Assembly (NCBI RefSeq): GCF_002127655.1
Contig: NZ_NEHB01000023.1
Span: 307 to 64,306 of the forward strand
Reading direction: 5' to 3'
DNA length: 64,000 bases
Source of the DNA: Janthinobacterium sp. GW456P
GTDB taxonomy: Bacteria > Pseudomonadota > Gammaproteobacteria > Burkholderiales > Burkholderiaceae_D
Below are positions 8,534-40,523 of the stretch, piece by piece. The position numbers were made by a program, and so were the translations under genes. Each line of letters begins with the position of its first letter. Within the stretch, counting starts at the first letter, position 1. The notes below the pieces were generated by a model. It was not told the DNA's origin and ran no database searches. It was given only the letters and a program-made list of their open reading frames with translations.

Positions 8534-8989
8534 CTAGCGTGAAACGAGGCGGATGCTGGCGCTGCCGTTCGCGGCGCTGGCGCTGCGCAGGTCGGCAGGC
8601 ATGCGCAAGCCGGGCAGGAACTGGGCGTCGTCGATCACCAGACGCTCGCCTGTATTGCTGAAGACGAAGCTCGAGCCTTGCCGGGTGATGAAGTGGCCGG
8701 GGCCGGTGGGGTAGATTTCCACGCTGGGCTTTTCCTGCCATTCGCGGTCATCGATCAGGCGGCCAAAAAAATGGCTGTCCTGCTGGTGTACTTCCAGCCG
8801 TTGTCCATTCGACAGGCGGTATTGCTGCTCGATGTCGAAGGCGTCCTGTGCCGTGACGTGATAGTAGGTGCCGGAGGTGACGCGCACGCTGTCCGCGGCT
8901 TGCGGCGCCATCGCGGTTTGGGCCTGGGCCGTGCCGCCGGCAAGGGCGAAGATAGCGGCGAGGAGGGGGAGTAAGCGTTTGGTATGCAT
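8534..8989 (-). CDS. Small exported protein of unknown function
   Basis: A 151-residue protein starting MHTKRLLPLLAAIFALAGG with a Sec signal peptide and likely cleavage after AQA (about residue 24). The mature part is mostly predicted beta strand, with no cysteines and no recognised motif. The ATG at 8989 has AAGG eight bases upstream; an in-frame GTG at 8998 is a weaker start. It stands alone between the kinase gene and rsgA, all on the minus strand. I do not recognise the family. Confidence 0.75.
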   Translation of the reverse strand: MHTKRLLPLLAAIFALAGGTAQAQTAMAPQAADSVRVTSGTYYHVTAQDAFDIEQQYRLSNGQRLEVHQQDSHFFGRLIDDREWQEKPSVEIYPTGPGHFITRQGSSFVFSNTGERLVIDDAQFLPGLRMPADLRSASAANGSASIRLVSR

Positions 8990-9187
8990 GACATTCACCT
9001 TCGATCAGGATGGCTGGATGGGTGGAAGTTAGATCGTGTGGTCGCTGGCAGGTTTCCGGCAGGGACTGGTGTCAAGTTAGCAAGCGCGCCTCTCCAGCGC
9101 CAGCGACAGGCGACGGGGGGCATGTTTTGCGCGCTGAAACGCTGAAAACGCTGGATGAACGGTATTGGGATTAAAATCGAAAAGCAA

Positions 9188-9221
9188 GCTCGGCCGCAAA
9201 ATTAAATTTTGCCGGCCGAGG
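9188..9221 (-). terminator. Strong hairpin downstream of rsgA
   Basis: A long near-perfect inverted repeat (CTCGGCCG plus CAAAATT, pairing with AATTTTG plus CCGGCCGAG, one bulged base) begins about 36 bases past the rsgA stop. On the minus strand it is followed by CTTGCTTTT. It probably ends the M48-pterin dehydratase-rsgA transcript and may work in both directions. Confidence 0.55.
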
Positions 9222-9256
9222 CTTTGTTGTTGCTTTATTCGTGCCGCGGCGTATGG

Positions 9257-10162
9257 TCAATACAGCGTTTGCGCCGATTCGTGCAGCAGCTGGCCATACA
9301 GGGTATGGCGCATCTTGGCGATCTTGCCTTCCGACAATGCTTGCAGGATGGCGCATTGCGGCTCGATCAGGTGGCGGCAGTTATAGAACTTGCAGCCGCC
9401 GAGATACGGCTGGAATTCGCGGAAGGCGCGCTCCAGCATGCCTTCGGACAGGTGGTACAGGCCGAATTCCTGGAAGCCTGGCGAATCGATGATGGAGCTG
9501 TTCGGGCCCAGTTCATCGAGCTTGTACAGGCGCGTAAAGGTCGTCGTGTGTTTGCCCGTGTCGAGCGCGGCCGAGATTTCGCGCACGGCGATATCGGCGT
9601 CCGGCACCAGCAGGTTGATCAAGGACGACTTGCCCATGCCCGACTGGCCGATCAGGATCGACGACTGGCCCGCCAGCAGCGGCGCCAGGGTGGCCACGGC
9701 GTGCTCCGGTTCGGCGCGCGCCGACACTTCATCGACGGGATAGCCCATCGAGGAATACGGCAGCAGGCGTTCGCGGGCGCGCTCCAGCGAAGCGGTCACG
9801 TCCGTTTTGTTCAGGATGATGCGCGCCTCGATGCCGGCCGCGTCGGCCGCCACCAGCGAGCGCGAGATCAGGTCGTCGGCAAAGCCCGGTTCCGTCGCCA
9901 CGACGATGAACAGCTGCGTCAAATTGGCGGCCAGCAGCTTCGATTTGTACTGGTCCGAGCGGTACAGCAGGGTCTTGCGTTCCTCGATGCGGTCAATGAC
10001 GGCCTGGTCGTTTGACGTGCGCGTCAGGTGCACGACATCGCCCACGGCCACATTGGTTTTCTTGCCGCGCGTGACGCATTGCAGCTTGGCGCCCTCCACG
10101 TCGGCCAGGTAATGGCGGCCGTGGGCGGCGATGATGACGCCCGTCAACTTGCCTTCGCTCAT
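9257..10162 (-). CDS. rsgA: Ribosome small-subunit-dependent GTPase A
   Basis: Circularly permuted GTPase that checks late 30S subunit maturation. The 301-residue protein starts [19 protein letters not shown]. It has an OB-fold at the N terminus, then the permuted order G4 (NKTD), G1 ([10 protein letters not shown]) and G3 (DSPG). The C-terminal zinc motif [14 protein letters not shown] is intact. The ATG at 10162 overlaps the stop of the upstream pterin dehydratase by four bases. A much longer upstream reading frame exists, but its extra 85 residues only overlap the neighbour gene. Confidence 0.96.
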
Positions 10163-27000: not shown

Positions 27001-29454
27001 ATGCAAGCACAGCAAAATCAGCGCCAGGCCGCCTCCCTCACCGTCGCGTATTGCGCCGACGACGAGTTCGACCAGGACAGCATCGTGTCGCTGCATGATT
27101 TCAAGGACCTGGAGCGCAAGGTCGAGGCGCCGGCCCCTGCGCCTGCCGCCGCTCCTGTCGCTCCCGCCACCGCGATGCCGGAAGCGCAAGCCGAGCCGGC
27201 AGTCGAAGCCGATAGCAAGGCATCGGCCGCCGAACGCCAGAAAATGGAATTGAAAGCCATCCACGAGGCGATCGCCCGCGTGGAAGCGGAAGCGAAGGCC
27301 ACCTGCGCCGCCGAAAGCCGCGCGCTGGCCGAGGCGCGCGTGCGCTCGCTGGCCGAGGACCGCGCCGCCATCGACGCGGCCGCGGCCGCCGCCGCGCAGC
27401 AAAATGCGCAGGCGGCCGAGGAAGCGATCGCCGCCAACCGCGAACGTCTCGACACCATGCGCGCCGCCGCGCAGGCCAGCGTGGCCCGCCTGGAAGCCGT
27501 CAAGCAGGAAACGGCCGAACTGCGCGCCCGCGTGGAGTCGGACAATGAAATCCGACTGGCCGCCGAACAGCGCGCCCGCGCCGAGCAGGAAAGCCGCTTG
27601 CGCGCCAGCGAGCAGGTGGCCGTGCAGTCGGAACTGGCCGAGCAGGCCGCCCGCGCCGCCGAAGAATTGCAGGCGCAGACGGAGCAGGCGCGCCTGCAGG
27701 CCGTCGAGCGCGTCGCCGCCGTGCAGGCGGCCAAGGAAGAAATGGTCGGCATCGCTTCGGCCGACGCCCGTGTCGCCGTGCTGGCGCGCGAACGCGAGCG
27801 CCACGCGCACGGCGCGCGCCAGACGGCGCAGATGCTGGCCGAAGCGGAAAGCGAAGCGCTGGACTTGACGGTGCAGCGCGAGCGCGCCGACCAGATCGCG
27901 CTGGAATCGGCCTTCAACCGCGCCGCCGCCGAAGTGCGCGCCCTGGAAGAAGCGCGCGCGCTGGCGCATCTGGAACAGGAACGCGAAGCCATCGCGCTGG
28001 CGCAGGCGGAATCGGAACGCCATGCGGCGCAGTCGCTGCGTCTGCGCCTGCAGACGGAAAAGGAATTGCGCGACGCGGCCATCCACCGCGAGCGCCTGGA
28101 AATGGTCGCCGTGACCAGCGCGCAGGCGCGCCGCGATGCCGACGTGCGCATCCTGGCCGCCACCGAAGCGCGCATCGAAGTGGACCGCCAGCTGCGCGCC
28201 GTGGCGCTGGCCCGCGTGGCCGCCGAACAGGATGCGGAAATCGCCGGCCATGCCAAGCTGGAAGCGGAAACGGCGGCCCTCGAAGAAACCAAGGCCCGCG
28301 AAGCGGCCGAGCAGGCAGCCGCCGTGGCGGCCGCCCGCGAACTGGAAGAGCAGCAGCGCGCCGCCAGCCTGGCGCAGGAACGCGCTGAACTGGCGCGCCA
28401 GGCGGCGGAACTGGCCGCCAGCCAGAACGAAGCCGGGCAGGCCGAAGTCGATGCCGGCAAGGCTGCCTTGGCCGCGCAGGAACAGGCCGCGCAACTGGCG
28501 CAGGAAAAAGCCCGCCAGGCAGAGCAGCTGCTGCAGGCCGAGCAGGAGCGCCTGGCCGCCGAACAAGCCGCCATCGCCGCCTTGAAAGAGAAGCTGGAAG
28601 CCGAAGCGCTGGCCTTCAACGCGGCGCAGGAACGCATCGCCGCCGAGCAGGCGCAGGCGGAACTGCTGCGCGGCCAGCACGCGGCCGAACTGGCCCTGCG
28701 GGAAGCGGCGGACAAGGAAGCCGACGCCATTTGCATCCTGATGGACCAGGCGCTGGTCGAAGGTGAAAAAAAGGCCGCTGCCGCGCAAGCGGTGCAGGCG
28801 CAGGCGCGGCTGGCCGTGGAATTGGGGCAAGTGCATAGCGAGCGCGCCCGCGTGGAAGAAGAAAAAGCCCAGGCGGCCGAAGCGCTGCTGGCATCCGAGC
28901 GCGATTTCGTCGCGGCCGAACGCGAGTCGCTGGCGCTGATCGCGCAAAAACTGGTGCAGCAGCGCCAGACCAGCAGCGCCGAAGAGCGCGCCTCGCAAGC
29001 GATCGCCGGCCGCCTGGAAGCGGAAAAACAGGCGACGGCGGCAGCCGAAGCGCGCGCCGCCATGGAACAGCAGGCGTTTGACGCCATGCGCCAGCGCGAG
29101 CAGCTGGAACTGGCGGCGCGGCAGGCCGCCAGCGAGAAGCTCGACGCGCAGCAAGCCTTGCTGGCCAGTGCGCAAGCCCACGCCGCTCTGCAGCGCAAGG
29201 CTGCCGACACGACGCGCGCGATGGCGGCCGCCAAACAGCAGTTGCTGGAACGGGACATGGAGCGCGCGCAGCAGCAAGAGCGCGAACTGGCCGCCCTGCG
29301 CGCCAGCCTGGAGCAACCGCAAAGCGCGTTTTCCAGTTCCTTGACCGCCGCCCGCGCGAAAGCCGAACAGGTGAGCTCGGCCAGTCTGACGCGCGAAGTG
29401 ATCGAGCGGCTGACGCAGCCGAATGATGCCGGCGCCGTCTGGCGTTCGCGTTAG
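27001..29454 (+). CDS. Large Ala/Glu-rich coiled-coil protein of unknown function
   Basis: An 817-residue protein. The first 50 residues (MQAQQNQRQAASLTVAYCAD, then SIVSLHDFKDLERKVEAP) look folded and are followed by a Pro/Ala linker (about 42-60). From about 80 to 775 it is an almost unbroken heptad-like helix dominated by Ala, Glu, Gln, Arg and Leu. The last 40 residues are less repetitive (SSASLTREVIERLTQPNDAG). There is no signal peptide, membrane span or enzymatic motif. TolA, SMC-arm or cytoskeletal-scaffold analogies come from composition only. It is a single gene flanked by family B repeats upstream and a family A repeat 5 bases past the stop. Very high-GC Ala codons create long spurious antisense frames. 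Confidence 0.85.
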   Translation: MQAQQNQRQAASLTVAYCADDEFDQDSIVSLHDFKDLERKVEAPAPAPAAAPVAPATAMPEAQAEPAVEADSKASAAERQKMELKAIHEAIARVEAEAKATCAAESRALAEARVRSLAEDRAAIDAAAAAAAQQNAQAAEEAIAANRERLDTMRAAAQASVARLEAVKQETAELRARVESDNEIRLAAEQRARAEQESRLRASEQVAVQSELAEQAARAAEELQAQTEQARLQAVERVAAVQAAKEEMVGIASADARVAVLARERERHAHGARQTAQMLAEAESEALDLTVQRERADQIALESAFNRAAAEVRALEEARALAHLEQEREAIALAQAESERHAAQSLRLRLQTEKELRDAAIHRERLEMVAVTSAQARRDADVRILAATEARIEVDRQLRAVALARVAAEQDAEIAGHAKLEAETAALEETKAREAAEQAAAVAAARELEEQQRAASLAQERAELARQAAELAASQNEAGQAEVDAGKAALAAQEQAAQLAQEKARQAEQLLQAEQERLAAEQAAIAALKEKLEAEALAFNAAQERIAAEQAQAELLRGQHAAELALREAADKEADAICILMDQALVEGEKKAAAAQAVQAQARLAVELGQVHSERARVEEEKAQAAEALLASERDFVAAERESLALIAQKLVQQRQTSSAEERASQAIAGRLEAEKQATAAAEARAAMEQQAFDAMRQREQLELAARQAASEKLDAQQALLASAQAHAALQRKAADTTRAMAAAKQQLLERDMERAQQQERELAALRASLEQPQSAFSSSLTAARAKAEQVSSASLTREVIERLTQPNDAGAVWRSR

Positions 29455-29632: not shown

Positions 29633-30586
29633 TCAGAATTTTCTCCCCACCCCCACCAAAATGACATCCGCATCGCGGTGGTAATCGGTCACCACCCGGT
29701 TCCAGGCGACGTGCGTCACCCAGCGGCGGTCGACGTGGTAGCGGGCCACGGCCGACAGCAAGCCTGTCAGGCGCGTGCTGTGGCCCTGGGTGTCGCGGCC
29801 GTCCCACGCCATGTAGGGCCCGCCGCCCATGCCGAATTCCACCTTTTCATTGAGCGAGCGGATCAGCCACAGCTGGGCGGCGATGCCGCGCCGGTGCGCC
29901 AGGTCGGTGTTGCCTTCGTCGAGGGCGGTGACCGTCCAGTCCACGTATTTTCCTGCCGCGCGCCGGTATTCCAGGGTGAACGGGCGCGAGGATTCCGAGC
30001 GCAAGCTGTTGACGATGGTGTGGCCGGTCGATAAGGTCAAGGTGTCGTCGTGGGCCCAGTTCTGCAAGTGCAGCTTGGCGCCCGGCACGCCGTCATAGCG
30101 GTAGCCGGCGCCGATCAGCAGGTGCGTGGTGTTGTCCTTGCCGTCGGGCTTGATGCGGTTGAGCTGCGCTTGCGCATACCAGCGATTGTCGAACTGCCAG
30201 CGCGCCTGCAGACTGACGATGGAACCCCAGCCGTGGTCATTGTCGAAGTTGTGCAGGCCGTCGTCGGTCCTGGCCGTGTCGAAGAAAAAGTAGCGGCCAG
30301 CACCGGCGCCCAGCATCAGGCCTTGCTCCACTTTTTCCGTGCGCAGCCAGACCTGGCCCGCCATGCCGTCGCGGTGATGGTCTTGCGGGTGGCCTTCATT
30401 GATGTACGACAGGCTGACGGCGCTGTAGTTGCCCACCGGCTGCGTGTAGCTGATGGCGGCGACAAAAGTGCGTTCATTGGTCGTGTTGACTTTCAGGGCA
30501 CCGGCCATGCCGGAGATATCCTGTGCCTGGGAGGACAGGGCGAGCGACGCGGCCAGCAAGGCCAGGGCGGCGGGGCATATGCGCAT
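29633..30586 (-). CDS. Predicted outer-membrane beta-barrel protein
   Basis: A 317-residue protein with a Sec signal peptide (MRICPAALALLAASLALSSQ, cleavage after AQA near residue 22). The body has alternating hydrophobic/aromatic strands, many Gly/Tyr/Trp residues, and a C-terminal Phe (VGVGRKF) typical of outer-membrane barrels. I chose the ATG at 30586 because the signal peptide begins there. Pore, lipid enzyme or adhesin cannot be told apart; no PagL-type catalytic motif was recognised. The 280 bases upstream hold no supported gene. Confidence 0.75.
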   Translation of the reverse strand: MRICPAALALLAASLALSSQAQDISGMAGALKVNTTNERTFVAAISYTQPVGNYSAVSLSYINEGHPQDHHRDGMAGQVWLRTEKVEQGLMLGAGAGRYFFFDTARTDDGLHNFDNDHGWGSIVSLQARWQFDNRWYAQAQLNRIKPDGKDNTTHLLIGAGYRYDGVPGAKLHLQNWAHDDTLTLSTGHTIVNSLRSESSRPFTLEYRRAAGKYVDWTVTALDEGNTDLAHRRGIAAQLWLIRSLNEKVEFGMGGGPYMAWDGRDTQGHSTRLTGLLSAVARYHVDRRWVTHVAWNRVVTDYHRDADVILVGVGRKF

Positions 30587-30866
30587 GGTATTTCCGATAG
30601 TGGTGATACACGCTAATGGTGGGCTGGCTGGACGTGCTGCGTTAGCGCAAGCATCGTGCATTTTTACTACAGTAATGGAAAGTTCCAGTCAGAACTAATT
30701 GCGAGTGTATAAGAAAGTGAGAATGTGTGAGGCGCGCCATGTATTGCTTGCGTGAGCGGGCCGGCGGCGGGAGCGGAGGAGGGAGGGCGCCGGCACGAGT
30801 ATGGCTGGCCGGCGCGGGACTGCTGGACTTGCGGTTGTCTTACTTTTTCTTGTATGACTGTCTCTC

Positions 30867-31241
30867 TTACTGGCTCAAGACGACCTTATCGGCAAAATAC
30901 TCCGTCTCGCCGAAGCATTGCGTAGGCACGCCCTTGTGCTGGCTGTAGGTGACGAGGATGCGCTTGCCGGCGGCGGCCGTCAGCTGCTTCGCCACTTCCT
31001 CGTCGCGCACGCTGAACTGGAATTTTTCCGGGATGGTGCCCGGCAGCGCCGTCAGCAGCAATTCCCCCTCCCATGTCTTGCAGATCCAGCCCCGCTTGGA
31101 GAACTTCTGCAGGTAGCCCGCCCGTTCGCCTTCCGAATACGAGAAGCTGAGGGCCATCCACGTGTAGGCTGCCAGCAGCAGGAAGCCGGCCACGAGGAAG
31201 ATGGCGAAGGCGAAGGTGACTTTTTTGGTCGTAGGGGTCAT
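30867..31241 (-). CDS. Small membrane-anchored protein of unknown function
   Basis: A 124-residue protein with one N-terminal membrane span (about 8-30, VTFAFAIFLVAGFLLLAAYT) and a soluble domain of about 90 residues facing the periplasm. It contains GYLQKFSKRGWICKTWEGEL and two cysteines (about 55 and 108). I recognise it as a conserved hypothetical type but know no function. It lies just downstream of the Ter locus on the same strand, separated from terA by a family B repeat. Confidence 0.75.
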   Translation of the reverse strand: MTPTTKKVTFAFAIFLVAGFLLLAAYTWMALSFSYSEGERAGYLQKFSKRGWICKTWEGELLLTALPGTIPEKFQFSVRDEEVAKQLTAAAGKRILVTYSQHKGVPTQCFGETEYFADKVVLSQ

Positions 31242-31368: not shown

Positions 31369-32613
31369 TCAGTCTTTGCGGCCAGCTTTCCAGTTCAGGC
31401 CAAAATTGTATCGCTCGTCCATCGCCTGGTGCGCCGTGATTTTACCTTGGCCGCCGAAGTATTCCACCAATTTTGTCACCTGCAGGTTGCCGCCGTGGTT
31501 TTCCAGCATGGCGATGGCGCACATGGCGTGCTGGCTGTCGCTGTCGAGGCGCACTTCCACGCTTGGCTGGCCGGGAATCTCGATCGTCACGACGCCATCC
31601 GTGGCGGCCCAGTTCGGCACGCCTTCGTAGATGAAAGCGTAGACGAGCACGCGCTTGATCTGGTCGAAATGGGTGCCGTTGATGAAGATGTTTTCACCGC
31701 TGCTGACGCTGCCCGTGCGGTCGTCGCCTTCCAGGTGGATGTACGGTGGCCTGTCATACGCGCCCCAGCTGTTGCCCAGCGCCTGCACGGCGCTCTTGGC
31801 GCCATTGCTCATCTCGAACAGGCAGCCGATGTCGAGGTCGATGCCGCCCGCGCGGCCGGCCGGCTTGTTGAACAGCTTGCCCAGGAAGCCTGTGTCCAGT
31901 TTTGAGGCGGGCGCCTGGCCTTGCGAGGCGTTCTGGTTCCAGTTCAGGTTGACACGGATGCGGCCATAGCCGCCGCTGTCGCGCTTGTCGAGCGAGATCT
32001 TGTCGCCGCGTTTTTCCAGGCGGATCTTCGACAGCGAGATTTTATTTGCCGTCGGCGGGGCCGCCGGCGCGGAGACGGGAACCGGTGCAGGAGCCGGGGC
32101 CGATTGCGACGCCTCGCTGCCGCCGAAGTGCTTCAGCAGCGCCGCCAGGCCGCCCGCGAAACCCTGGCCCACGGCGCCGAAGCGCCAGCTGCCGTCGCGG
32201 CGATACAGTTCGCCGATGATGACGGCCCTTTCATCCTGGAAGTCGTTGCCCGTGAAGGCAAACGTGGCCGCCTGGCCCAGCGCCATGCTGGAGTTGCCCA
32301 GCGCGCGCATGCTGCCCTGTTCCGTCGCCGCCGTGAATACCAGCTTGTCGATCGAGGCGGGCAGGCGGGACAGGTCGATCTGGAAGGTGGAACGGGGACC
32401 GTTCAACTCCACCATGACGGCGTTGTCCGGCGCGCTTTTCTGGTTGTAGAACACCATGTAGCGGTCGTCCGACAGCTTGCCCGCCGCATCGACGCCGAAG
32501 CAGCTGACGTCCACTTCCATCGAGCCCGAAACGATATCGAGCGTGACGGCAAACGGGCCATTCAAGCCCAGGTCAGCCAGTTTGCCTTTTTGTCCGCGTG
32601 TGAAATTGTTCAT
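31369..32613 (-). CDS. terA: Tellurium-resistance protein: TerD-like domain fused to TerA domain
   Basis: A 414-residue protein. Residues about 1-165 form a TerD-like calcium-binding beta-sandwich, including VDVSCFGVDAAGKLSDDRYM and ERAVIIGELYRRDGSWRFGA. A Pro/Ala/Ser linker (about 168-190) leads to a TerA-type domain (about 195-414) with RIRVNLNWNQ, GIDLDIGCLFEM and GENIFINGTHFDQIKRVLVY. In known Ter systems TerA, TerD and TerC form a membrane-associated stress complex. It is the last gene of the locus; its ATG overlaps the C-C lyase stop by four bases. Confidence 0.93.
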   Translation of the reverse strand: MNNFTRGQKGKLADLGLNGPFAVTLDIVSGSMEVDVSCFGVDAAGKLSDDRYMVFYNQKSAPDNAVMVELNGPRSTFQIDLSRLPASIDKLVFTAATEQGSMRALGNSSMALGQAATFAFTGNDFQDERAVIIGELYRRDGSWRFGAVGQGFAGGLAALLKHFGGSEASQSAPAPAPVPVSAPAAPPTANKISLSKIRLEKRGDKISLDKRDSGGYGRIRVNLNWNQNASQGQAPASKLDTGFLGKLFNKPAGRAGGIDLDIGCLFEMSNGAKSAVQALGNSWGAYDRPPYIHLEGDDRTGSVSSGENIFINGTHFDQIKRVLVYAFIYEGVPNWAATDGVVTIEIPGQPSVEVRLDSDSQHAMCAIAMLENHGGNLQVTKLVEYFGGQGKITAHQAMDERYNFGLNWKAGRKD

Positions 32614-33596
32614 GGTCGTGCAATCCCTTCGTCGCTTGAAAGTTGAGTCAATGAGGTATTCGAATGGTGCGCGGCGGCGTTATCGGCCGCATGGCGGATG
32701 CCGAACAGGCGCGCCTGCTCGATGATGCGCAGCGCCCAGCTGCTGTGCGTGGCCACTTCGCACATCGATTCCTGCATGCGGAACACGGCCGGGCTGTCGG
32801 GGTCGATGATGCGCAGCGCCAGTTCGATGTCCGACTGCGCCACTTGGTAGTGGCGCTCGATCTGCGGCACCTGGTCCGGGTGGATGGCTGTCTTGGCGAT
32901 CATGCCGTGCGCCATGTCCTGCGCCACTTCGGCGTCCAGCCAGCTGCCCTGCGACAGGTGCTCGAAGACGGGCGCCGTCAGCTGGAAACCGTGCGGCTTG
33001 AAGATCGTCACCAGGCGGCCGATGACCTGGCCCAGCGGCGTTGAATAGATGGTGCCGCTGGTGGGGCGGCGCAGGCCCAGCAGGGCCAGTAAATCGTTGC
33101 CGCCGATGCGCAGGGCCAGGATGCGGCGGCGCACTTCCGGCGCCGACAGCATGACGCGGAACTGCTTCATTTCCTCGTCGTCGAACACTTCCGCCGTTTC
33201 CAGGGTCGGCATCAGCCAATGATGCGTGTGGCGCACCAGGTCGAAATACGCGGCGAAATTGTGGCGCGTGGATTTCGGCAGCACGAAGCCGCTCAATTTG
33301 TCGGCGCCCGGCATGGCCAGCACGCGTGCCAGCACGTCCAGATTGCGCACGCGCACGAAGCGCAAGGTGTCCGATTCGTCGGCCATGTTTTGCAGCGCCA
33401 GCGACAGGTTGAACAACGCGTAACTGAGGTCGCGTTCGGCGATGGCGTCTTCGGTGCAAAGGATGACCGAGCGCAAATGGCTGAATTTGTCGCCGTTGGC
33501 GATCGCCAGCAAGTCCTTGTGCGTGGTCGGCACGTACATGGAGGCGCCCAGCGCCGCTTTATGTTCGCTTTGCGGGTGTAGGGAGTTGTTATCCAT
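32610..33596 (-). CDS. TIM-barrel C-C bond lyase (HpcH/CitE-like) of the Ter locus
   Basis: A 328-residue cytoplasmic enzyme related to the HpcH/HpaI aldolase and citrate-lyase beta family. Stretches typical of the fold are SHLRSVILCTEDAI, VLPKSTRH, LMPTLETAEVF and LALRIGGNDLLALLGLRR. Metal-binding acidic residues are present. It belongs to the C-C lyase group found with Ter genes. The reaction is unknown; the neighbours suggest it cleaves or joins a carbon skeleton in a nucleoside-like metabolite pathway. It overlaps the StiP gene upstream by 8 bases and terA downstream by 4. Confidence 0.88.
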   Translation of the reverse strand: MDNNSLHPQSEHKAALGASMYVPTTHKDLLAIANGDKFSHLRSVILCTEDAIAERDLSYALFNLSLALQNMADESDTLRFVRVRNLDVLARVLAMPGADKLSGFVLPKSTRHNFAAYFDLVRHTHHWLMPTLETAEVFDDEEMKQFRVMLSAPEVRRRILALRIGGNDLLALLGLRRPTSGTIYSTPLGQVIGRLVTIFKPHGFQLTAPVFEHLSQGSWLDAEVAQDMAHGMIAKTAIHPDQVPQIERHYQVAQSDIELALRIIDPDSPAVFRMQESMCEVATHSSWALRIIEQARLFGIRHAADNAAAHHSNTSLTQLSSDEGIARP

Positions 33597-34695
33597 CGAC
33601 TGCGCTCCTGATAAGGGCGACCGCCTGATAAGGCAGTGCCGGTTCTACTGTGACGGGTATGGCTTTTTCCTGCGCCAGAAGCAGCAAATGTGCCACGTCC
33701 GGCGCATTCGTGTCGCGCACGATCAGGCGCTCGGGCACGCGGCGCAGCAGCACGCGCGTCGCTTCGCCGATGCCTGGCTTGATCAGGTTGATGTCGCTGA
33801 TGCCGTATTGCTGCTGCGCGGCGGCCATGTAGGCTTGCGAGCGGGCCGCCATTGCGGGCGCGTCGCTCGCTTCGGCCAGCGGGATGCCGCTGCTTGCGGC
33901 AATGGCCATGGCGTCGGCCACCAGGCCGTCGGCGAAAGCGCGCGACTGGTCGTGCGCCTCGAACTGCGCGTAGTACACGCAGCCGTGGAAGTCGGCGGGG
34001 CCGATGGCTTCATTCAATACGGAGCGGCTCACCAGGCCCGAAACGGTGGCGTTCAGGATGCTCGACGGGATCAGGTAGTCGCTGGCCGAGGCGGCGCAGG
34101 CGGCCGTGCCGGCCAGGTCGGACAGCACGAACAGGCCGCCATCGATGGCCGTGCCATTGGCGGCATTGAAATCGTTCACCGTCTGGCGCAGTTCGCGCGA
34201 AATCACGCCCTTGCCCGTCCAGCCGTCGACGAAGACGATGGACTCGGGCGCATGGCCCTGCGCCAGGATGTGCCGCAGCGCGTTCGCATCGATGCCGCGG
34301 TCGCGGATGATGGAGACGGAATAGTGGCTGCAGTCGCGCTGGAACACCTGGCGCAGCAAGTGCCCGAGGATGACGCCCACGGGCGTGCCGGCGCGCGCCA
34401 GCGAGACCAGGGTGACGGGGCCCGTGCGCCGCGCCGCGATCAGGGCAGCCAGGCGCAGGCAGTCGCGCGCCATCTGCAGGCGGTTGGCGGCAAATGCGCT
34501 CTGGAACAGGGCCAGGTAGGCGGGCGAGGGCAGGGACTCCGGCGACAGCATTTCGCTGTAGTGGCGCTGGCCGGACTGGATCAAGCGCTCTTTTTCGGCC
34601 AGGTCGAGAATCGGTTCGAGCGCCATCGGCGTCAACAGAAACTCCACGTCCTCCTGGCGGTAGCTGCCGCTGAAATGCTGCGTGTCTTGCGTCAT
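33589..34695 (-). CDS. StiP/PRTase-type protein with C-terminal PELOTA-like domain
   Basis: A 368-residue protein usually annotated as cysteine protease StiP family; the fold has also been interpreted as a phosphoribosyltransferase. The N terminus has the family pattern FSGSYRQEDVEFLL and GQRHYSEMLSPE. A PRPP-loop-like sequence VDGWTGKG is at residues 156-163. The last 55 residues (TRVLLRRVPERLIVRDTNAP onwards) resemble the PELOTA-like RNA-binding domain. Middle gene of the overlapping five-enzyme block. Whether it acts as a transferase or protease here cannot be decided from sequence. Confidence 0.88.
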   Translation of the reverse strand: MTQDTQHFSGSYRQEDVEFLLTPMALEPILDLAEKERLIQSGQRHYSEMLSPESLPSPAYLALFQSAFAANRLQMARDCLRLAALIAARRTGPVTLVSLARAGTPVGVILGHLLRQVFQRDCSHYSVSIIRDRGIDANALRHILAQGHAPESIVFVDGWTGKGVISRELRQTVNDFNAANGTAIDGGLFVLSDLAGTAACAASASDYLIPSSILNATVSGLVSRSVLNEAIGPADFHGCVYYAQFEAHDQSRAFADGLVADAMAIAASSGIPLAEASDAPAMAARSQAYMAAAQQQYGISDINLIKPGIGEATRVLLRRVPERLIVRDTNAPDVAHLLLLAQEKAIPVTVEPALPYQAVALIRSAVDG

Positions 34696-35480
34696 AGCGC
34701 CGCCACCGTGAGTGCCGCCAGCTGGGTGCCGTTGGGGATGATGGCGTAGTCGCAGGCGGCCATGAAGCGGGCGTCAGAACGGCTGTCGCCCATGCCGAAG
34801 CTGACGATGGGGCCGTGTTCGGCTTCCAGTTCCGCGCGCAGGTAGGCTACGGCGCGCGCCTTGTTCAAGGTTTTCGGCAGCACGGCCAGATTGTTGCCGT
34901 TGCGGTGGATGAAGTAGTCGGCGCCCTCGGCCGCGATCCACTGCTGCAGCACTTGCTCTTCGATGTCGGCCAGGCGCTCGCCGCGCGCTTCATGGTCCTT
35001 GACGACGATGTAGAACGGCGTGTTGTAATCCTCGATCAGGCGCGCGCGCGAAGGCATGCCCGTCTTGACCTGGAAATCGTCGATGATGCGCATGGCGTCC
35101 CGCAGGCCGGGCAAGGCCGTCTGCATGTCGTTCTGCATCAGGGACAGCCAGCCCGCGTCGAGCGCGCCGCCCGGCTGCAGCACGATGCCACCGTAATCGA
35201 GCACGCTGTAGCTGCTAAACGGCAGGTCGACGCGTCGGAAGGCGTCGCCGTTCCTCGCCGTCGCGGGAATCAGGGTCATGCCGCTTTGCGCGAATTCAAA
35301 GAAGGCGCGCTGGCGCGCCGTCGTAAACGAGCAGGCTTCGCCATTTTTCAGGTAGGCGGCCGCTTGCAGATCGGTCTCGCCAGGGCATTTTTTCGGGGTC
35401 TGGAACAGTGTGTCGTCCAGATCAACAAACAGGAATTTCTTCAATTTTGGTCTCTGACTGAAAGTGGAACAGGCGGCCAT
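34692..35480 (-). CDS. HAD-family hydrolase of the Ter locus
   Basis: A 262-residue haloacid-dehalogenase-type phosphatase. The catalytic motif FVDLDDTLF places nucleophile Asp20 and acid Asp22; the C-terminal metal motif is FGMGDSRSDARFM. A large cap domain lies between them. The ATG at 35480 overlaps the upstream PRTase-TRSP gene by 59 bases; an in-frame TTG at 35444 would cut the overlap to 23 bases and still keep the catalytic motif, so the true start is open. It likely removes a phosphate from the pathway intermediate. Confidence 0.88.
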   Translation of the reverse strand: MAACSTFSQRPKLKKFLFVDLDDTLFQTPKKCPGETDLQAAAYLKNGEACSFTTARQRAFFEFAQSGMTLIPATARNGDAFRRVDLPFSSYSVLDYGGIVLQPGGALDAGWLSLMQNDMQTALPGLRDAMRIIDDFQVKTGMPSRARLIEDYNTPFYIVVKDHEARGERLADIEEQVLQQWIAAEGADYFIHRNGNNLAVLPKTLNKARAVAYLRAELEAEHGPIVSFGMGDSRSDARFMAACDYAIIPNGTQLAALTVAAL

Positions 35481-36579
35481 TCAGCTGGCCGGCGAGTTGC
35501 ATGAGGGCCGGGTTGGCCGGGGTTTCATGGCAGATGAACACGTGCTGGTACTGGCCAGGCGCCACGTTGTACAGGTAGTTGGCGATGCCTTCGCCGTAGT
35601 TGTCGTCGCAGCGGACGATATGGCCGACAGCGCCCCACGACAGAATCGGCGAGCGCGTGGTCGACTGCACCACCACGTTCTTGCCCAAGGCTTCCAGTTC
35701 GCGCGCCAGCAAAAACGACGGGTGCATGAATTCGCCCGTGCCCAGCACCAGCACGGAGTCGCCGGCGCCGATTTCCTGCGCCAGCTGCACCGCCAGGCCT
35801 TGCGGCGCCGCCAGCGCGCGTCCCACGCCGATGCGCCCGAAGGCGGGGCTGGCGCCGCGTTCCGCATTCGCTTCGAAGCGCTGCGCGCTGGCCGCCACGG
35901 GAGCGGGCGCGGCGCCGGCCTGGAAGGCGTACTGGCCGGACAGCGCCGCGCCGATGGTCGTGGGCAGGCCGAAACGCTCGCTCAAGCCCGCGTTGGCGGC
36001 CTGGCCCATGAAATTGGTGATCACGCCCAGGTGCAGCTTTTCCAGTTGCGGATAGCGCGCGCGGCACACTTGCACCAGGTTGGCGAAGGTGTTGCCGGTC
36101 GACGCTTCATCGTCGATCAGCACCAGGCTGCGGGCCGTGGAAAACAGCGCGCTGGCCGCATCCGATAAATGTAAAAACTGGCGCGGCGCGTGGCTGTGCG
36201 ATTCCTCGAATTCGAAGAAGGGCACCGTGCCCACACGGTAGCGCGAGCTGTGCAAAAACAAGGCCTTGCCGTTCGGGTTGGCGCGCAGCCAGGCTTCGAA
36301 CACACCCTGGCCCAGGCCGACGGCCGTTTCCGCCATGGCGATGAAGACGACTGGGCCGGGCAGGCTGGGGGGAATCTGCGCGGCCAGGTCGTCGTGGATG
36401 GCTTGCATGGCGCGCGGCGTGACAGGCCAGTGCTTGCCCAGCACTTTCGACAGGAACAAAAAGCCGCGCTTGGCGTTGGCGCGCGCGGCAAAGCCGATCA
36501 GCCAATCGAGCGGGAAGCGCGCCTCGTCCACCTTCAAGGTCAGTTCGCCCGTGGGCATTTGCTGCTTGACGAGGTTCAT
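35422..36579 (-). CDS. Phosphoribosyltransferase-TRSP domain protein
   Basis: A 385-residue two-domain protein. The N-terminal half is a PRTase-like fold with the PRPP-binding loop LVLIDDEASTGNT (152-164). A variable Ala/Pro linker lies around 225-250. The C-terminal TRSP domain includes LVLGTGEFMHPSFLLARELE and VFICHETPANP. In Ter biosynthetic clusters this family is proposed to attach a ribosyl phosphate or remove a base during metabolite synthesis. It overlaps ATP-grasp upstream by 4 bases and the HAD gene downstream by up to 59. Confidence 0.9.
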   Translation of the reverse strand: MNLVKQQMPTGELTLKVDEARFPLDWLIGFAARANAKRGFLFLSKVLGKHWPVTPRAMQAIHDDLAAQIPPSLPGPVVFIAMAETAVGLGQGVFEAWLRANPNGKALFLHSSRYRVGTVPFFEFEESHSHAPRQFLHLSDAASALFSTARSLVLIDDEASTGNTFANLVQVCRARYPQLEKLHLGVITNFMGQAANAGLSERFGLPTTIGAALSGQYAFQAGAAPAPVAASAQRFEANAERGASPAFGRIGVGRALAAPQGLAVQLAQEIGAGDSVLVLGTGEFMHPSFLLARELEALGKNVVVQSTTRSPILSWGAVGHIVRCDDNYGEGIANYLYNVAPGQYQHVFICHETPANPALMQLAGQLNGRLFHFQSETKIEEIPVC

Positions 36580-37613
36580 GGCAGCTCCACGGCGTAGGCG
36601 GCTTCGCCCACGCGCATGCCTTCGCGGATGACGGGCACGGTGAGCTTGTCAAAGCCCTGGTCGAAGCCGGCCAGCGCCAGGTAGGGCAGGTTGGGGCCGG
36701 CCGCGCACGCCATGCCGATGCCGCCCGACATGCGCGGATTGATCTCCAACAGCGCCAGGCCATTGGCGCCTTCGCGGAACTGGATGTTGAAGACGCCATT
36801 GAGGCGGTAGTCGCGCGCCAGTTTGTCGCAGGCGGCCAGCAGGTCGGCGCGCAGTTCGATCAGCTGGCCGCTGCCGCCCGCGTGCAGTTTCTTGCGCGGC
36901 ACGGCGCAAATGAGCTTGCCCTGGTCGGCGACGCAGTCGGCGCTGTATTCGTGGCCATCGAGGTATTCCATCAGCAGCAGGGGCTTGAACGATGCCATCT
37001 GCGCCAGGCCCGCGCGCAGCTCCTGCGCATTGATCTGGTAGGCGGCGCCGGTCAGCAGCAGCTGGGCGCTGCTGCGCTCTTCATCGAGCACGGCAAAGCC
37101 CAGGCCATACACGGATTCGGACGGCTTGATGCACAGCTTGCGGTGCAGCGGTCGCAGTTCGGCGTAGGCGGCGTCGTATTCTGCGATGCTGGTGACGGCG
37201 CGGTAGTCGGCCGGGCGCGCCATGGGCAGGTCGAGGCCGTCGCAGAAGCGCGCCTTGTCATGCATCAGGGCCAGCGTGTCTTCGCTGGCCACGCTGAGCA
37301 CGCGCGTGCCGATGGCGGCGAAGCGCGCGCTGGCGCTGCCGATCAGGCCCGCTTCCTTGCCGGGCCAGAAAATCGTGATGCCCCGTGCGCGGCAAAATTC
37401 CAGGCACCACTCGACATAATCGAGGCCCGTCAGCCCCGACGGTTCGACCGCGTATTCGTGCGCCGACAAAAAGGCGGCCGCATGCGCGTTCGTATTGCTG
37501 CACACGATGTGATAGCGTGGCGCGCCACTGGTCGCGGCCATATCGGCTTCGCGGATCAGTCGCATGGCCGTGCCGACCGAGGAAAATGTTTTGTTGAACC
37601 AGACTCTTTGCAT
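36576..37613 (-). CDS. ATP-grasp ligase of the Ter locus
   Basis: A 345-residue ATP-grasp enzyme, which would join a carboxylate to an amine or similar nucleophile through an acyl phosphate. Visible elements are LHRKLCIKPSESVYGLGFAV (ATP-binding lysine region), LLLMEYLDGHEYSADCV and the metal site LLEINPRMSGGIG (Glu290, Asn292). It corresponds to the Ter-associated ATP-grasp group. First gene of the overlapping enzyme block, separated from the AIM24-like gene upstream by 243 bases that contain a family A repeat and presumably a promoter. Confidence 0.9.
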   Translation of the reverse strand: MQRVWFNKTFSSVGTAMRLIREADMAATSGAPRYHIVCSNTNAHAAAFLSAHEYAVEPSGLTGLDYVEWCLEFCRARGITIFWPGKEAGLIGSASARFAAIGTRVLSVASEDTLALMHDKARFCDGLDLPMARPADYRAVTSIAEYDAAYAELRPLHRKLCIKPSESVYGLGFAVLDEERSSAQLLLTGAAYQINAQELRAGLAQMASFKPLLLMEYLDGHEYSADCVADQGKLICAVPRKKLHAGGSGQLIELRADLLAACDKLARDYRLNGVFNIQFREGANGLALLEINPRMSGGIGMACAAGPNLPYLALAGFDQGFDKLTVPVIREGMRVGEAAYAVELP

Positions 37614-37739
37614 GTACGGGGACCGGGTGGAAATAGGGGAAGCCGCGCGCAGGTGCGCGCGCGGGGATTCTAGCTAGCCAGACTTAACCTGGCCTTAGAA
37701 TTTTTTTGAACTACAACGTTGAGCAACAAACTAACAGCG

Positions 37740-37851
37740 CCTGACAAAACCGTAGCGAGCGGAAGGAAGAGGTGGCGGAGAAGCGCAACCGTACTAAAGT
37801 ACGGTGAGTATCGCAGGCCGCCTATGCCGACGCGTAGTAGGTTTGGTCAGG
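37740..37851 (+). repeat. Structured intergenic repeat, family A, copy 3
   Basis: 112-bp element ending 5 bases past the stop of the minus-strand AIM24-like gene. Ends are CCTGACAAAACC (37740-37751) and the complement of CCTGACCAAACC (37840-37851). The central hairpin is CCGTACT-AA-AGTACGG. An intermediate stem AGGTGGC / GCCGCCT contains one G-T wobble. It shares long blocks with copy 1, for example GGAGAAGCGCAACCGTACT versus TGAGAAGCGCAACCGTACT. Confidence 0.82.
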
Positions 37852-37856
37852 TGCCT

Positions 37857-38573
37857 CTAGCCAGCTTTGCCGCTGGCTGTCCATTTTAAGAACGCATCGC
37901 GGTTGCGCGAGCAGATGAAGACCTTGCCCGAGCCGGAAAAGCGCAGCACGATACCTTCGCCGCTGGTCACGCTGTTGACGATATTGCCGAGGAAGCCGCC
38001 GATGCCGCCGCCGCTGGCACCGCCGCCCGTGGTGACGGAAATCTCGTATTTCAGGCTGTTGTCCCAGCACACCACGTGGGAATTGTCGATCACGACGTCC
38101 TTGCCCGGCTCGACGTCGAGCTGGAACATGGAGCCGAAGCCCGACACCACCACTTGGCCCGTGCCGGCCGTCTCCATGACGAAGAAGCCGCCCGACTGCG
38201 CGAACAGCGCGTTGCCGATGCTTTGCGTGCGCACCTTCATTTCCGTGCCCGAGGTGGCGGCGACAAAGGCGCCGTCGTTGAGCAGGTACTGGCGCGCGCC
38301 CACGTCGACCACTTCGATGGCGCCCGGCAGGGTGGGCGAGAGCAGGCAGTCGCCGCTGCCGCGCACCGCTTCGATGTGCTGCTGGAAGAACGATTCGCCA
38401 TTCGCAAAGCGGCGCATGATGGCGCTGCCCAGGCCGCCCGTCATCTTGCCTTTCAAGTCCAGCGCCGTTTCCATCATCACCATCGCATCCGATTCGCAAT
38501 AGATGGTTTCGCCCTGCTTCATGCTGACGTGCAGGAATGGGTCGACGTCGCCGGTGACACTAAATACTGGCAT
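37857..38573 (-). CDS. AIM24/TIGR00266-family protein in the Ter locus
   Basis: A 238-residue beta-rich protein starting MPVFSVTGDVDPFLHVSMKQ. Family features include GGLGSAIMRRFANGESFF and the Gly-rich stretch GGGASGGGIGGFLG (about 185-198), with an HVVCWD motif before it. The family is widespread in bacteria and related to mitochondrial AIM24; its molecular role is unclear. The ATG at 38573 has GGAG 6 bases upstream. It follows terD after a repeat and a terminator, so it may be partly or separately expressed. Confidence 0.9.
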   Translation of the reverse strand: MPVFSVTGDVDPFLHVSMKQGETIYCESDAMVMMETALDLKGKMTGGLGSAIMRRFANGESFFQQHIEAVRGSGDCLLSPTLPGAIEVVDVGARQYLLNDGAFVAATSGTEMKVRTQSIGNALFAQSGGFFVMETAGTGQVVVSGFGSMFQLDVEPGKDVVIDNSHVVCWDNSLKYEISVTTGGGASGGGIGGFLGNIVNSVTSGEGIVLRFSGSGKVFICSRNRDAFLKWTASGKAG

Positions 38574-38584
38574 GATAAATCTCC

Positions 38585-38617
38585 AAAAAAAAGCCGCCTG
38601 AGGATATTCAGGCGGCA
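38585..38617 (-). terminator. Terminator between terD and the AIM24-like gene
   Basis: Perfect 9-bp stem GCCGCCTGA (minus strand 38617-38609) / TCAGGCGGC (38602-38594), followed by nine T (38593-38585). The T run ends just before the GGAG ribosome-binding site of the AIM24-like gene. It is a textbook terminator for terD transcripts; any read-through would enter the AIM24-like gene. Confidence 0.9.
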
Positions 38618-38640
38618 GTAATGATATGACAAAAGTGCAA

Positions 38641-38760
38641 TTCACCTCGGAAAACCGTAGCGAGCAAGCGCGATTTCGGGTTAAGTCGCGCAGCTGTACG
38701 CAGGTACAGCGAGCAACGCAGGCCCGAAAGTGAGCGGCGCAGTAGGTTTAACGAGCGTGA
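38641..38760 (+). repeat. Structured intergenic repeat, family A, copy 4
   Basis: About 120 bp, starting 2 bases past the terD stop on the minus side. Ends keep AAAACC (38651-38656) and GGTTTAA, with a diverged outer stem. The central stem has a different sequence, GCTGTAC-GCAG-GTACAGC (38693-38710), and the intermediate stem is TTTCGGG / CCCGAAA. Sequence differs most from the other copies but pairing is preserved. Confidence 0.75.
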
Positions 38761-38762
38761 AT

Positions 38763-39338
38763 TTAAGCGTTGACGCCGAACGAGCGTGCGAGGGGGCCCA
38801 GGCCGCCGTTGAAGCCCTGGCCGATGGCCTTGAACTTCCATTCGCCGTTGTAGCGGTAGATCTCGCCAAAGATCATCGCCGTTTCCGTCGAGCTGTCTTC
38901 GGACAGGTCGTAGCGGGCGATTTCTTTTTCGCCTTCCGCGTTCAGGCAGCGGATGAAGGCTTTCGACACCATGCCGAAGTTCTGGCGGCGCGCGTCGGCG
39001 TCGTGGATGGTGACGGTGATGCTGATGCGGTCGATGTCGGCTGGCACGCGGGTCAGGTCGATTTCGATGCGCTCATCGTCGCCTTCGCCTTCGCCCGTGG
39101 TGTTGTCGCCCGTGTGCACGACGGAGCCGTCGGTCGACTTCAGGTTGTTGTAGAAGATGAAGTCAGAGTCGCCACGGACTTTGCCGTCGTTTTTCAGGAG
39201 GAAAGCACTGCCGTCAAGGTCGAAGGTGGCGCCGTCCGTCGAACGAGGATCCCAGCCGAGGCCGACGATGATCTTCTTCAGGTTCGGTGCTTCCTTGCTC
39301 AGGTTGACGTTGCCGCCTTTTTGCAAACTGATTGCCAT
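38763..39338 (-). CDS. terD: TerD-family calcium-binding stress protein
   Basis: A 191-residue cytoplasmic protein of the TerD/TerE family. It starts [20 protein letters not shown]. Family motifs are [37 protein letters not shown] and [18 protein letters not shown], with intact acidic calcium-binding residues. The ATG at 39338 has AAGGAG 4 bases upstream. It lies 102 bases downstream of the TerC-like gene; a GGGGA-TGAAT-TCCCC palindrome sits in that gap. TerD and TerC are usual partners at the membrane. Confidence 0.96.
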
Positions 39339-39440
39339 GTGGTGCTCCTTAAAAAAATTAAACTCGATCATGCCTTCATGGGATGAGCGCATAAGACGCT
39401 CGTGCCATTACTCTCTCAATTGGGGATGAATTCCCCGATT

Positions 39441-40523
39441 TCAAGCTTGTGCCGCGTGCCGTTTGCGATAGCGCAAGGACGACCACAGCGAGACCAGGAT
39501 GAAGGCCACGCCCGACAGGCCCGTGAACCACTCCGGGATATGGTACTTGACGGACGCCAGCATGATCAAGGCGAGGATGCCGATCGCATAATGGGCGCCG
39601 TGCTCGAGGTAAACGAATTCGTCCAAGGTGCCCTTGTGCACCAGGTACACCGTCATCGAGCGCACGAACATGGCGCCGATGGCCAGGCCCAGCATGATGA
39701 TGACGACGTCGTTGGTGATGGCGAACGCGCCGATCACGCCGTCAAAGCTGAACGAGGCGTCCAGCACTTCCAGGTACAGGAAGCCGCCGATACTGCCGCG
39801 CGCCACCGTTTTCACCAGGTCGCCATTGCCGTTCTTGGCTGGCGCGGCGCCTTCCTCGGCGTCATCCTGCAGGTCCGGTTCGCCTTCTTCCAGCAAGCCG
39901 CTGATCCAGTTGACGCCGATGTAGACGGCGATGCCGACGATGCCCGACGCGAGCACGCTGTATTTGGCTTCCGCAGGGCCCATCGCCACGCAGGCGGCCA
40001 CGGCGCCCATGGTGATCAGCACGGCCAGGCTTTCCGTGCCCAGCGCATTGACTTTTTCCTCGGCCCAGCCCAGCCAGTGCAATTCCTTCTCGTCGTCGAA
40101 CAGGAAGTTCAGGAATACCAGCAGCAGGAAGGCGCCGCCGAAGGCCGCCACTTGCGCATGGTTGTCCGTCAGGTGTTTGGCATACACGTCGGGCGTGGTC
40201 GTGGCCATGGTCCACACGTCGACCAGGCCCAGGCCCGTGGCGACGGAAACGATGACGAGCGGGAACAGCAGCCGCATGCCGAAGACGGCCACGAGGATAC
40301 CGACCGTCAAGAACAGCTTTTGCCAGAATTCATTCCAGTGGCGCAAGACCGAGGCATTCACCACGGCATTGTCGAATGACAGCGACACTTCCATGACGCC
40401 CAGCACGCCCGTGATCCACAGCGCATTGATCAGGCCGGGCATGCCGCCATGGCTGTAACCCCACCAGCCCGACACCGCCATCAGGACAAAAGTGACTAAA
40501 AAGGAAATTCTGAAATGCCGCAT
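39441..40523 (-). CDS. TerC-family membrane protein (DUF475)
   Basis: A 360-residue integral inner-membrane protein with about nine spans and two copies of the TerC signature: EVSLSFDNAVV (45-55) and EVLDASFSFDGVIGAF (252-267). An acidic cytoplasmic loop (about 212-225, LEEGEPDLQDDAEEG) separates the halves. TerC relatives are linked to metal-ion (for example manganese) export and membrane stress complexes. First gene of the Ter locus. The upstream region shared with the divergent PAP2-type gene contains a candidate FNR-type box. Confidence 0.92.
   Translation of the reverse strand: MRHFRISFLVTFVLMAVSGWWGYSHGGMPGLINALWITGVLGVMEVSLSFDNAVVNASVLRHWNEFWQKLFLTVGILVAVFGMRLLFPLVIVSVATGLGLVDVWTMATTTPDVYAKHLTDNHAQVAAFGGAFLLLVFLNFLFDDEKELHWLGWAEEKVNALGTESLAVLITMGAVAACVAMGPAEAKYSVLASGIVGIAVYIGVNWISGLLEEGEPDLQDDAEEGAAPAKNGNGDLVKTVARGSIGGFLYLEVLDASFSFDGVIGAFAITNDVVIIMLGLAIGAMFVRSMTVYLVHKGTLDEFVYLEHGAHYAIGILALIMLASVKYHIPEWFTGLSGVAFILVSLWSSLRYRKRHAAQA

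Follow-up and report, generated by a model that had tools for sequence, protein, structure and literature searches.

Introduction

Enzyme genes that adjoin the Ter genes of bacteria, which are linked to metals and stress, were reportedly assigned in 2012, by Anantharaman, Iyer and Aravind, to a biosynthetic module predicted to make a nucleoside-like compound. An earlier note on the DNA studied here had given the prediction in these terms, and two later papers cite it so in the excerpts available (PMC8115787, PMC7824862). The Ter enzyme module is widespread, and no report of its product was found in the literature searched, as the note had supposed. Here, we describe a copy of this module from Janthinobacterium sp. 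GW456P (source genome 6.27 Mb). It occupies positions 31369-40523, on the minus strand, of a 64-kb stretch of contig NZ_NEHB01000023.1 that is called the window below. Its predicted enzymes are a Ter-type ATP-grasp enzyme, a PRTase_2-TRSP phosphoribosyltransferase (PRTase), a HAD phosphatase, a StiP-PELOTA protein, and a C-C bond lyase.

A second described system has a bearing on the chemistry of the module. In Bcs3, the capsule polymerase of Haemophilus influenzae b, the CriT domain (residues 599-1036) uses phosphoribosyl pyrophosphate (PRPP) to place an O-linked ribofuranose-5-phosphate on a ribitol hydroxyl, and the HAD domain CrpP then removes the phosphate; the acid pair of CriT is split between two loops (D680, E818), according to the portion of the report available (PMC10299916). 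Cj1432 of C. jejuni carries out the same transfer and dephosphorylation on another sugar, as far as the accessible part of its description goes (PMC12096443).

The families of the Ter module and the prediction were known before; what we add is a sharper hypothesis, a minimal enzyme set, and a solved relative of the phosphatase. In short, we lean towards reading the last six genes of the locus as a Ter-associated cassette for a ribosylated product, with transfer by PRTase_2 and StiP, dephosphorylation by the HAD enzyme, and a possible O-link. A vague “nucleoside-like metabolite” would thereby become assayable, with a solved phosphatase, a likely stand-in substrate, a solved analogue of the second transferase, and the minimal set at hand.

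The core of the module and its distribution

Loci were collected by a StiP pattern scan, which returned at least 592 relatives. The best 80 by StiP similarity, two viral contigs, and four annotated records make up the set of 86 loci. This choice makes the presence of StiP a given and favors Janthinobacterium and Massilia; some loci are cut by contig ends. Two of the loci (L030 and L112, both in records of 234,900 bases) are apparently the same phage and are both counted; the viral scan yielded two loci, one of them apparently phage ME3 again. Three sets of genomes were used besides: 43 module genomes, namely that of the window and those of 42 of the 86 loci, for TerD and trehalose-6-phosphate (T6P) synthase counts; 13 genomes reached via StiP and searched whole, picked mostly for a locally incomplete module or for having no Ter neighbors; and a phylum sample of 299 genomes, whose nine module genomes are rated at least 95% complete. 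Many sampled genomes are metagenome-assembled genomes (MAGs), and absences there are soft.

Gene content and order recur across genera, and the closest relatives at the locus are from Janthinobacterium (StiP 96-97% identical, L031-L037). PRTase_2, HAD, and StiP occur together in 79 of the 86 loci. By profile searches, all five enzymes are found in 61, and a further 13 lack the ATP-grasp enzyme only. Smaller sets, some of them explained by contig ends, consist of PRTase_2, HAD, and StiP only (5/86), of HAD, StiP, and the lyase (4/86), or of StiP and the lyase (3/86). Across the phylum sample, PRTase_2 and StiP exceed the Pfam cut-offs in the same nine of 299 genomes, eight of which also have the HAD enzyme; weak matches below the cut-off add 16 genomes for PRTase_2 and two for StiP. 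Among the 13 genomes searched whole, PRTase_2 was present in all, HAD in 12, the lyase in 11, and the ATP-grasp enzyme in six. The pairing of PRTase_2 with StiP holds without close linkage, because in three of these genomes, all MAGs, the two genes are not neighbors (L104, L109, L110). In the first of them, from a Deltaproteobacteria MAG, StiP and the C-C lyase are separated by two frames that lack a Pfam match (8034-9949).

The earlier note had called the region a Ter stress locus. TerD lies nearby in 69 of the 86 loci and is present in 41 of the 43 module genomes and in eight of the nine of the phylum sample; the association with Ter genes is not obligatory, for three genomes searched whole hold the core and gave no TerD match. 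Two of them carry all five enzymes, Variovorax sp. J22R133 (G336; L106, 6970-12011) and a Gemmataceae MAG (G337; L107, 6871-12081), and the third (G253), rated 100% complete, carries PRTase_2, StiP, and HAD. Such Ter-less hosts are a minority of the module genomes. Twenty flanking open reading frames (ORFs) scanned beside modules without Ter genes or HAD (L106, L107, L098, L109, L117, L118) revealed no recurrent partner gene. An O-methyltransferase gene stands directly upstream of the Gemmataceae copy and was seen once.

The module also travels on plasmids and in a phage. Of 72,556 plasmid records, 2563 contain a HAD relative (tblastn, E 1e-5 or better); Klebsiella, Escherichia, Enterobacter, and Salmonella account for 2204 of these. 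The closest plasmid copy is that of Polaromonas pPNAP04, the sole record above 60%, with a HAD 65% identical to that of the window. In plasmids of Klebsiella and Pseudomonas the same enzyme set adjoins classical ter genes. The Acinetobacter jumbo phage ME3 has the three-gene core with the PELOTA domain retained, which is in line with the account of it in the part available (PMC7824862).

The two transferases

Residue conservation was read from alignments of the window with hand-picked, less redundant loci (49 for StiP, 52 for PRTase_2, 46 for HAD, 43 for the lyase, and 32 for the ATP-grasp enzyme); “invariant” refers to these aligned rows only, with truncated copies left out. Predicted structures were compared by Foldseek and by VIA, a second look over the Foldseek matches in which a fold missed by Foldseek cannot appear.

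The PRTase_2-TRSP protein, modeled with a pLDDT of 93.7, is predicted to fold as an adenine-type PRTase (7y94_B, Z 12.8, 3.1 A, 175 residues aligned, VIA). The residues D156, D157, E158, T161, G162, and T164 (DDE..TG.T) are present in 53 of 53 rows, so that the vicinal acids of ordinary PRTases are kept. Because this is a canonical nucleotide-type PRPP site, the enzyme probably makes an N-riboside. The 50 VIA rows listed for PRTase_2 do not include CriT; they barely cover the TRSP domain (about 230-385). By sequence, a single-sequence search of the PDB gave nothing, and a profile search gave only weak PRTase matches (best E 0.042).

The StiP-PELOTA protein (pLDDT 93.9) is predicted to have a PRTase fold despite its “cysteine protease” name: all 50 of its VIA rows are proteins of this fold. 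The first rows are CriT of Bcs3 (8a0c_A, Z 11.4, 3.8 A, 197 residues aligned; 8a0m_D, Z 10.2, 4.3 A, 214 residues), and the first row that is not CriT is a purine PRTase (Z 10.0, 4.2 A, 141 residues). The match on Bcs3 spans residues 639-964, a range given by the first and last aligned residues only, and extends to the helices bundled around the core of CriT (domain limits from PMC10299916). The PRPP-site motif of StiP, DGWTGKG, is found in 50 of 50 rows and contains a single acid; the usual vicinal acid pair is missing, and an invariant acid, D132, stands elsewhere in the sequence.

The phosphatase and its solved relative

In Pfam, the window HAD matches general HAD models only, over the cut-off but weakly (Hydrolase_3 1.6e-06, S6PP 6.5e-06). 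A clearer relative is the enzyme deposited in the PDB as “trehalose phosphatase” (6cj0, 6d3v, 6d3w), which is about 35% identical and has the NGNNLA motif in common with the window protein. The HAD residues D20, D22, T74, K207, D232, and D236 are found in 47 of 47 rows. Magnesium-dependent T6P hydrolysis by the P. aeruginosa enzyme was reportedly described by Cross in 2018. An inhibitor study used the P. aeruginosa extrachromosomal enzyme as a T6P phosphatase (TPP) and, in the text available, names its Cys85 and Cys231 (PMC6838324). In the Ter locus of the P. aeruginosa plasmid pA681-IMP, a HAD gene stands between those for PRTase_2 and StiP. Its product has Cys85 and Cys231 and shares 92% identity with 6d3v, from which it shows 20 differences in 249 by a count made by eye. 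From this identity and the shared cysteines we infer that the solved “extrachromosomal trehalose-6-phosphate phosphatase” is a Ter-locus HAD.

T6P is probably a stand-in substrate for the Ter HAD, because no T6P synthase (PF00982) was detected in 26 of the 43 module genomes, among which are several MAGs and G340, also without HAD; the synthase is present in the window's genome and 16 others. In the phylum sample it was not found in seven of the nine module genomes, or six of the eight with HAD, and it is present in 81 of the 299 genomes overall. T6P is a phosphorylated O-linked disaccharide, and activity on it would therefore fit a pocket suited to a phosphorylated riboside bearing a second ring. 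These counts suggest that the published trehalose enzyme is named for a substrate without a known synthase in many module-bearing bacteria. The open-access literature searched contains no joint mention of trehalose-6-phosphate phosphatase, TerD, and tellurite.

The ATP-grasp enzyme and the lyase

Residues K120, K163, E222, E290, and N292 of the ATP-grasp enzyme, presumably catalytic, are present in 33 of 33 rows. A profile of the lyase matches CitE-type lyases in the PDB (best 3qll, E 3.8e-11), with the RipC model far below the cut-off. Its R84, E133, and D168, found in 44 of 44 rows, are presumably the substrate and metal ligands, as in CitE. The earlier note had read the gene order as a readable order of chemistry that begins with ligation. 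We rejected gene order as reaction order: the ATP-grasp enzyme does not look like an obligate first step, because it was found in six of the 13 genomes searched whole and in 61 of the 86 loci (a divergent copy could be missed), and the lyase was not found in two of the 13.

A proposed route to a ribosylated product and its alternatives

The proposal builds on the observed families, predicted folds, active-site conservation, co-occurrence, and separability of the enzyme and Ter parts. The core would consist of two PRPP-using enzymes, PRTase_2-TRSP and StiP-PELOTA, nearly always with the HAD phosphatase. Each transferase would pass ribose-5-phosphate to an acceptor, and the HAD enzyme would strip the 5-phosphate to leave a ribosylated product; we judge this succession of ribosylation and dephosphorylation to be likely. 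StiP may add ribose to a hydroxyl, since it has no vicinal acid pair and its top VIA match is an O-ribofuranosyltransferase, and that at least one ribose of the product is O-linked is a tentative suggestion, doubtful as yet. In that case, the product would be either an O-ribosylated nucleoside or a riboside resembling a sugar, and it would be understandable that a HAD relative passed for a trehalose-6-phosphate phosphatase. Tailoring of the acceptor would fall to the C-C lyase, joined by the ATP-grasp enzyme where it occurs. DUF475, TerD, AIM24, and TerA would make up a module of their own, tied to the membrane and to metals, by which the product is used or sensed under stress.

Several points weigh against this proposal. 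All of its substrates, as well as the O-linkage and the link between product and Ter proteins, are ones that we infer. HAD was not found in two module genomes, G114 (rated 100% complete) and the MAG G340, and none of five ORFs scanned beside the G114 module is a replacement phosphatase. The lead of CriT among the StiP matches is small, 1.4 Z for 8a0c_A and 0.2 Z for 8a0m_D, and Foldseek itself places hypoxanthine PRTases first, with one match under E 0.001 and 8a0m_D at rank 9. The pairing of D157 with D132 of StiP as a putative split acid pair like that of CriT is our own reading and suggestive at most. The likeness between CrpP and the Ter HAD is an analogy of logic, since the Ter HAD matches HAD-IIB, sucrose- and trehalose-phosphatase relatives; CrpP is likened to pyridoxal-phosphate and phosphoserine phosphatases in the available part of its description (PMC10299916). 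Finally, the PELOTA domain points to RNA, for which a small-molecule pathway offers no explanation.

The probabilities that we attach to the cassette for a ribosylated product and to the other readings overlap. The strongest rival, which we regard as quite possible, is the 2012 reading of a free nucleoside-like signal, an N-glycosidic base-riboside sensed by the Ter proteins; it overlaps with our proposal and differs in having no O-linked ribose. The adenine-type model and canonical DD motif of PRTase_2 and the Ter neighbors of most loci agree with it, and later papers repeat it in the passages available (PMC7824862, PMC8115787). By itself, however, it explains neither the use of two different transferases with one phosphatase nor the disaccharide-phosphate assignment of the HAD relative and the match of StiP to CriT, and the core persists without TerD in G336, G337, and G253. 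The “nucleoside-like” product of the earlier note has the presence of transferases and a phosphatase behind it. Since the solved HAD relative was treated as a trehalose-6-phosphate phosphatase and the top VIA match of StiP makes O-ribosides, an O-linked product is a live alternative to it.

The PELOTA domain raises another possibility, that the transferases act on RNA: a PELOTA-guided StiP would ribosylate RNA, and the HAD enzyme would remove the 5-phosphate. CriT is a precedent for O-ribosides made by a PRTase-like fold, the phage ME3 copy keeps PELOTA, and E311, T313, R314, R318, and R319, within the stretch aligned to L7Ae, are found in 50 of 50 rows. However, L7Ae ribosomal proteins are matched only weakly (best E 0.004), there is no known RNA target, and at position 310 the asparagine of the L7Ae motif N-E-T-T-K is replaced by G (46), A (3), or S (1) in the 50 rows. 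We consider this reading improbable. A broader version, drawn by analogy and still unlikely in our view, is an O-ribosylation machine in which StiP-PELOTA is CriT-like, the L7Ae-type domain directs StiP to either RNA or a nucleoside product, and the “TPP” HAD finishes the reaction. If it were true, the Ter systems, of which many are plasmid-borne and one is carried by a jumbo phage, would serve to mark RNA or to produce ribosyl-nucleosides, and in some bacteria the module would operate without any TerD.

That the HAD enzyme is a true trehalose-6-phosphate phosphatase, and that the locus serves to make or control the stress solute trehalose, is very improbable. The P. aeruginosa relative was deposited as a trehalose phosphatase and used as such in the accessible part of the inhibitor study (PMC6838324), but the T6P synthase is missing from the matches of most module genomes, as counted above. 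The window's genome moreover has its own OtsA adjoining a separate OtsB (PF02358, 108 bits), and PF02358 gave no match to the window HAD or to any of five further Ter HADs scanned, that of P. aeruginosa included. A cysteine protease in a partly proteolytic stress response is hardly credible: the H-x-C of StiP (H237 and C239), invariant in 50 of 50 rows, is not accounted for by a PRTase role and is possibly the origin of the protease name in Pfam and NCBI, and the confident model matches PRTase-fold proteins throughout, within what Foldseek returned.

Layout of the locus and its Ter genes

The nine genes that the earlier note had placed on one strand are all minus-strand open frames at the positions it gave, with Pfam matches for all nine and protein matches in addition for HAD and TerA (Table 1). 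They run in the order DUF475, TerD, AIM24, ATP-grasp, PRTase_2-TRSP, HAD, StiP-PELOTA, C-C lyase, TerA. By longest frames, the last six overlap by 4, 59, 4, 8, and 4 bases, in agreement with the note; the 59-base overlap is probably 23 in reality, with the HAD start at TTG 35444 instead of ATG 35480, because AGAGA precedes the TTG and the start fits the family better.

Table 1. Features of the locus in the window, in the order of transcription
Feature	Coordinates	Strand	Evidence
DUF475 membrane protein, wider TerC superfamily, 360 aa	39441..40523	-	Pfam DUF475 357 bits, 1.5e-106; TerC 61.7 bits, 1e-16; NCBIfam PRK14013
TerD	38763..39338	-	Pfam TerD 291 bits, 3.4e-87; frame to 39392, likely start MAISLQKGG at 39338 (translation)
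Terminator-like hairpin TerD/AIM24	38593..38616	-	9-pair stem, then 8 T
AIM24 family protein	37857..38573	-	Pfam AIM24 188 bits, 1.7e-55; frame to 38645, likely start 38573 directly past the hairpin
Ter-type ATP-grasp, carbamoyl-phosphate-synthase-like	36576..37613	-	ATPgrasp_Ter 146.6 bits, 4.4e-43; PDB 2pn1 E 1.8e-07
PRTase_2-TRSP phosphoribosyltransferase, canonical PRPP motif	35422..36579	-	PRTase_2 (PF15609) 199 bits, 6.7e-59; TRSP (PF12500) 72.8 bits, 3.1e-20
HAD phosphatase	34692..35480	-	PDB 6cj0/6d3v/6d3w E 2.6e-30; probable start TTG 35444
StiP-PELOTA, predicted PRTase-fold protein with L7Ae-type RNA-binding domain	33589..34695	-	StiP (PF11202) 331.7 bits, 3.1e-99; PELOTA_1 114.2 bits, 2.3e-33
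C-C bond lyase, CitE/HpcH TIM-barrel family	32610..33596	-	C-C_Bond_Lyase 305 bits, 6.3e-91
TerA: TerD domain and C-terminal TerA part	31369..32613	-	TerD domain 116 bits, 1.4e-33; Klebsiella TerA 39% identity, E 7e-83

The terminator-like hairpin after TerD suggests separate transcription of DUF475 and TerD on one side and of AIM24 and the six-gene run on the other. Among loci with the TerD and AIM24 pair, a strict script detected it in 13 of 16 from Janthinobacterium and in none of 18 from other genera. A sigma-70 promoter scan found none against 2.0 expected. No tRNA that might bound the locus was found. A riboswitch was rejected, as Rfam gave no match in the window at the gathering cut-off, and so was a known defense system, as none of the nine proteins matched a PADLOC anti-phage model at E 0.001.

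Profile searches placed four of the five enzymes in specific Pfam families and the HAD enzyme in general models only. Pfam itself relates two of the four families to Ter or tellurite; for PRTase_2 and the C-C lyase a Ter link is presumed as well. The earlier note had identified the families well; some of its gene names needed revision. Its “TerC-like” gene does belong to the TerC superfamily, with DUF475, which outscores TerC (PF03741), as the closest family. Its “TerD-TerA” is TerA, matching the annotated Klebsiella protein over 92% of the query, and a novel TerD-TerA fusion was accordingly discarded. Nor is the Ter locus complete, as had been claimed. It falls outside the canonical terZABCDEF set, with no terZ, terB, or terF and with DUF475 instead of a true TerC. 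Eight flanking window proteins gave no Ter family match in Pfam, and TerB, TerF, and TerZ gave none beside the near-identical loci L031-L042.

The same genome has two further Ter clusters, DUF475-TerD-AIM24-TerZ on contig C18 (6751-9968 of stretch L113) and TerD-TerA-TerF on contig C38 (5649-8904 of stretch L114). The DUF475, TerD, and AIM24 of the C18 cluster are 65-74% identical to their window counterparts. Both stretches gave Ter genes and no matches to the module enzymes; a single genome thus contains Ter genes that stand apart from the enzymes.

Near the locus, two minus-strand frames without a Pfam match lie directly downstream of TerA (29633-30661 and 30867-31241). An 817-residue frame at 27001-29454, likewise without a Pfam match, has a long coiled-coil look and is rich in Ala, Glu, Gln, and Arg.

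Comparison with known systems

CriT-CrpP and Cj1432 resemble the proposed route in PRPP-dependent transfer of ribose-5-phosphate followed by dephosphorylation by a HAD enzyme. Bcs3 differs in being one multidomain polymerase that acts on a polysaccharide and in having different HAD relatives, and PELOTA, TRSP, C-C lyase, and Ter genes are not reported for either system in the parts of the papers available. The P. aeruginosa enzyme of 6cj0, 6d3v, and 6d3w is treated as a trehalose enzyme in the accessible text; the window's genome, for its part, encodes an OtsA and an OtsB besides its Ter HAD.

Judged by its gene families, the locus is a Janthinobacterium-type copy of the Ter-associated biosynthetic module of 2012. 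It joins PRTase_2 to TRSP and StiP to PELOTA_1, has the Ter-type ATP-grasp enzyme, C-C lyase, and HAD in one gene run with them, and links the run to TerD, TerA, and DUF475. The module and the locus agree in the five enzymes, in their adjoining TerD and TerA, and in a near-identical order; the window differs in having DUF475 for TerC, in the added AIM24, and in that TerB, TerZ, and TerF are not at the site. The same set stands in plasmids of Klebsiella (L029), Pseudomonas (L028), and Polaromonas (L027). Polaromonas naphthalenivorans pPNAP04 (NC_008760) has DUF475, TerD, and the six genes in order, and besides the HAD its best-matching proteins are 57-79% identical; it differs in two extra TerD genes, in that no AIM24 was found, and in the kinase, PP2C, TerY, and VWA genes that follow. 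In the finished relative LM6 (L033), the same locus is chromosomal.

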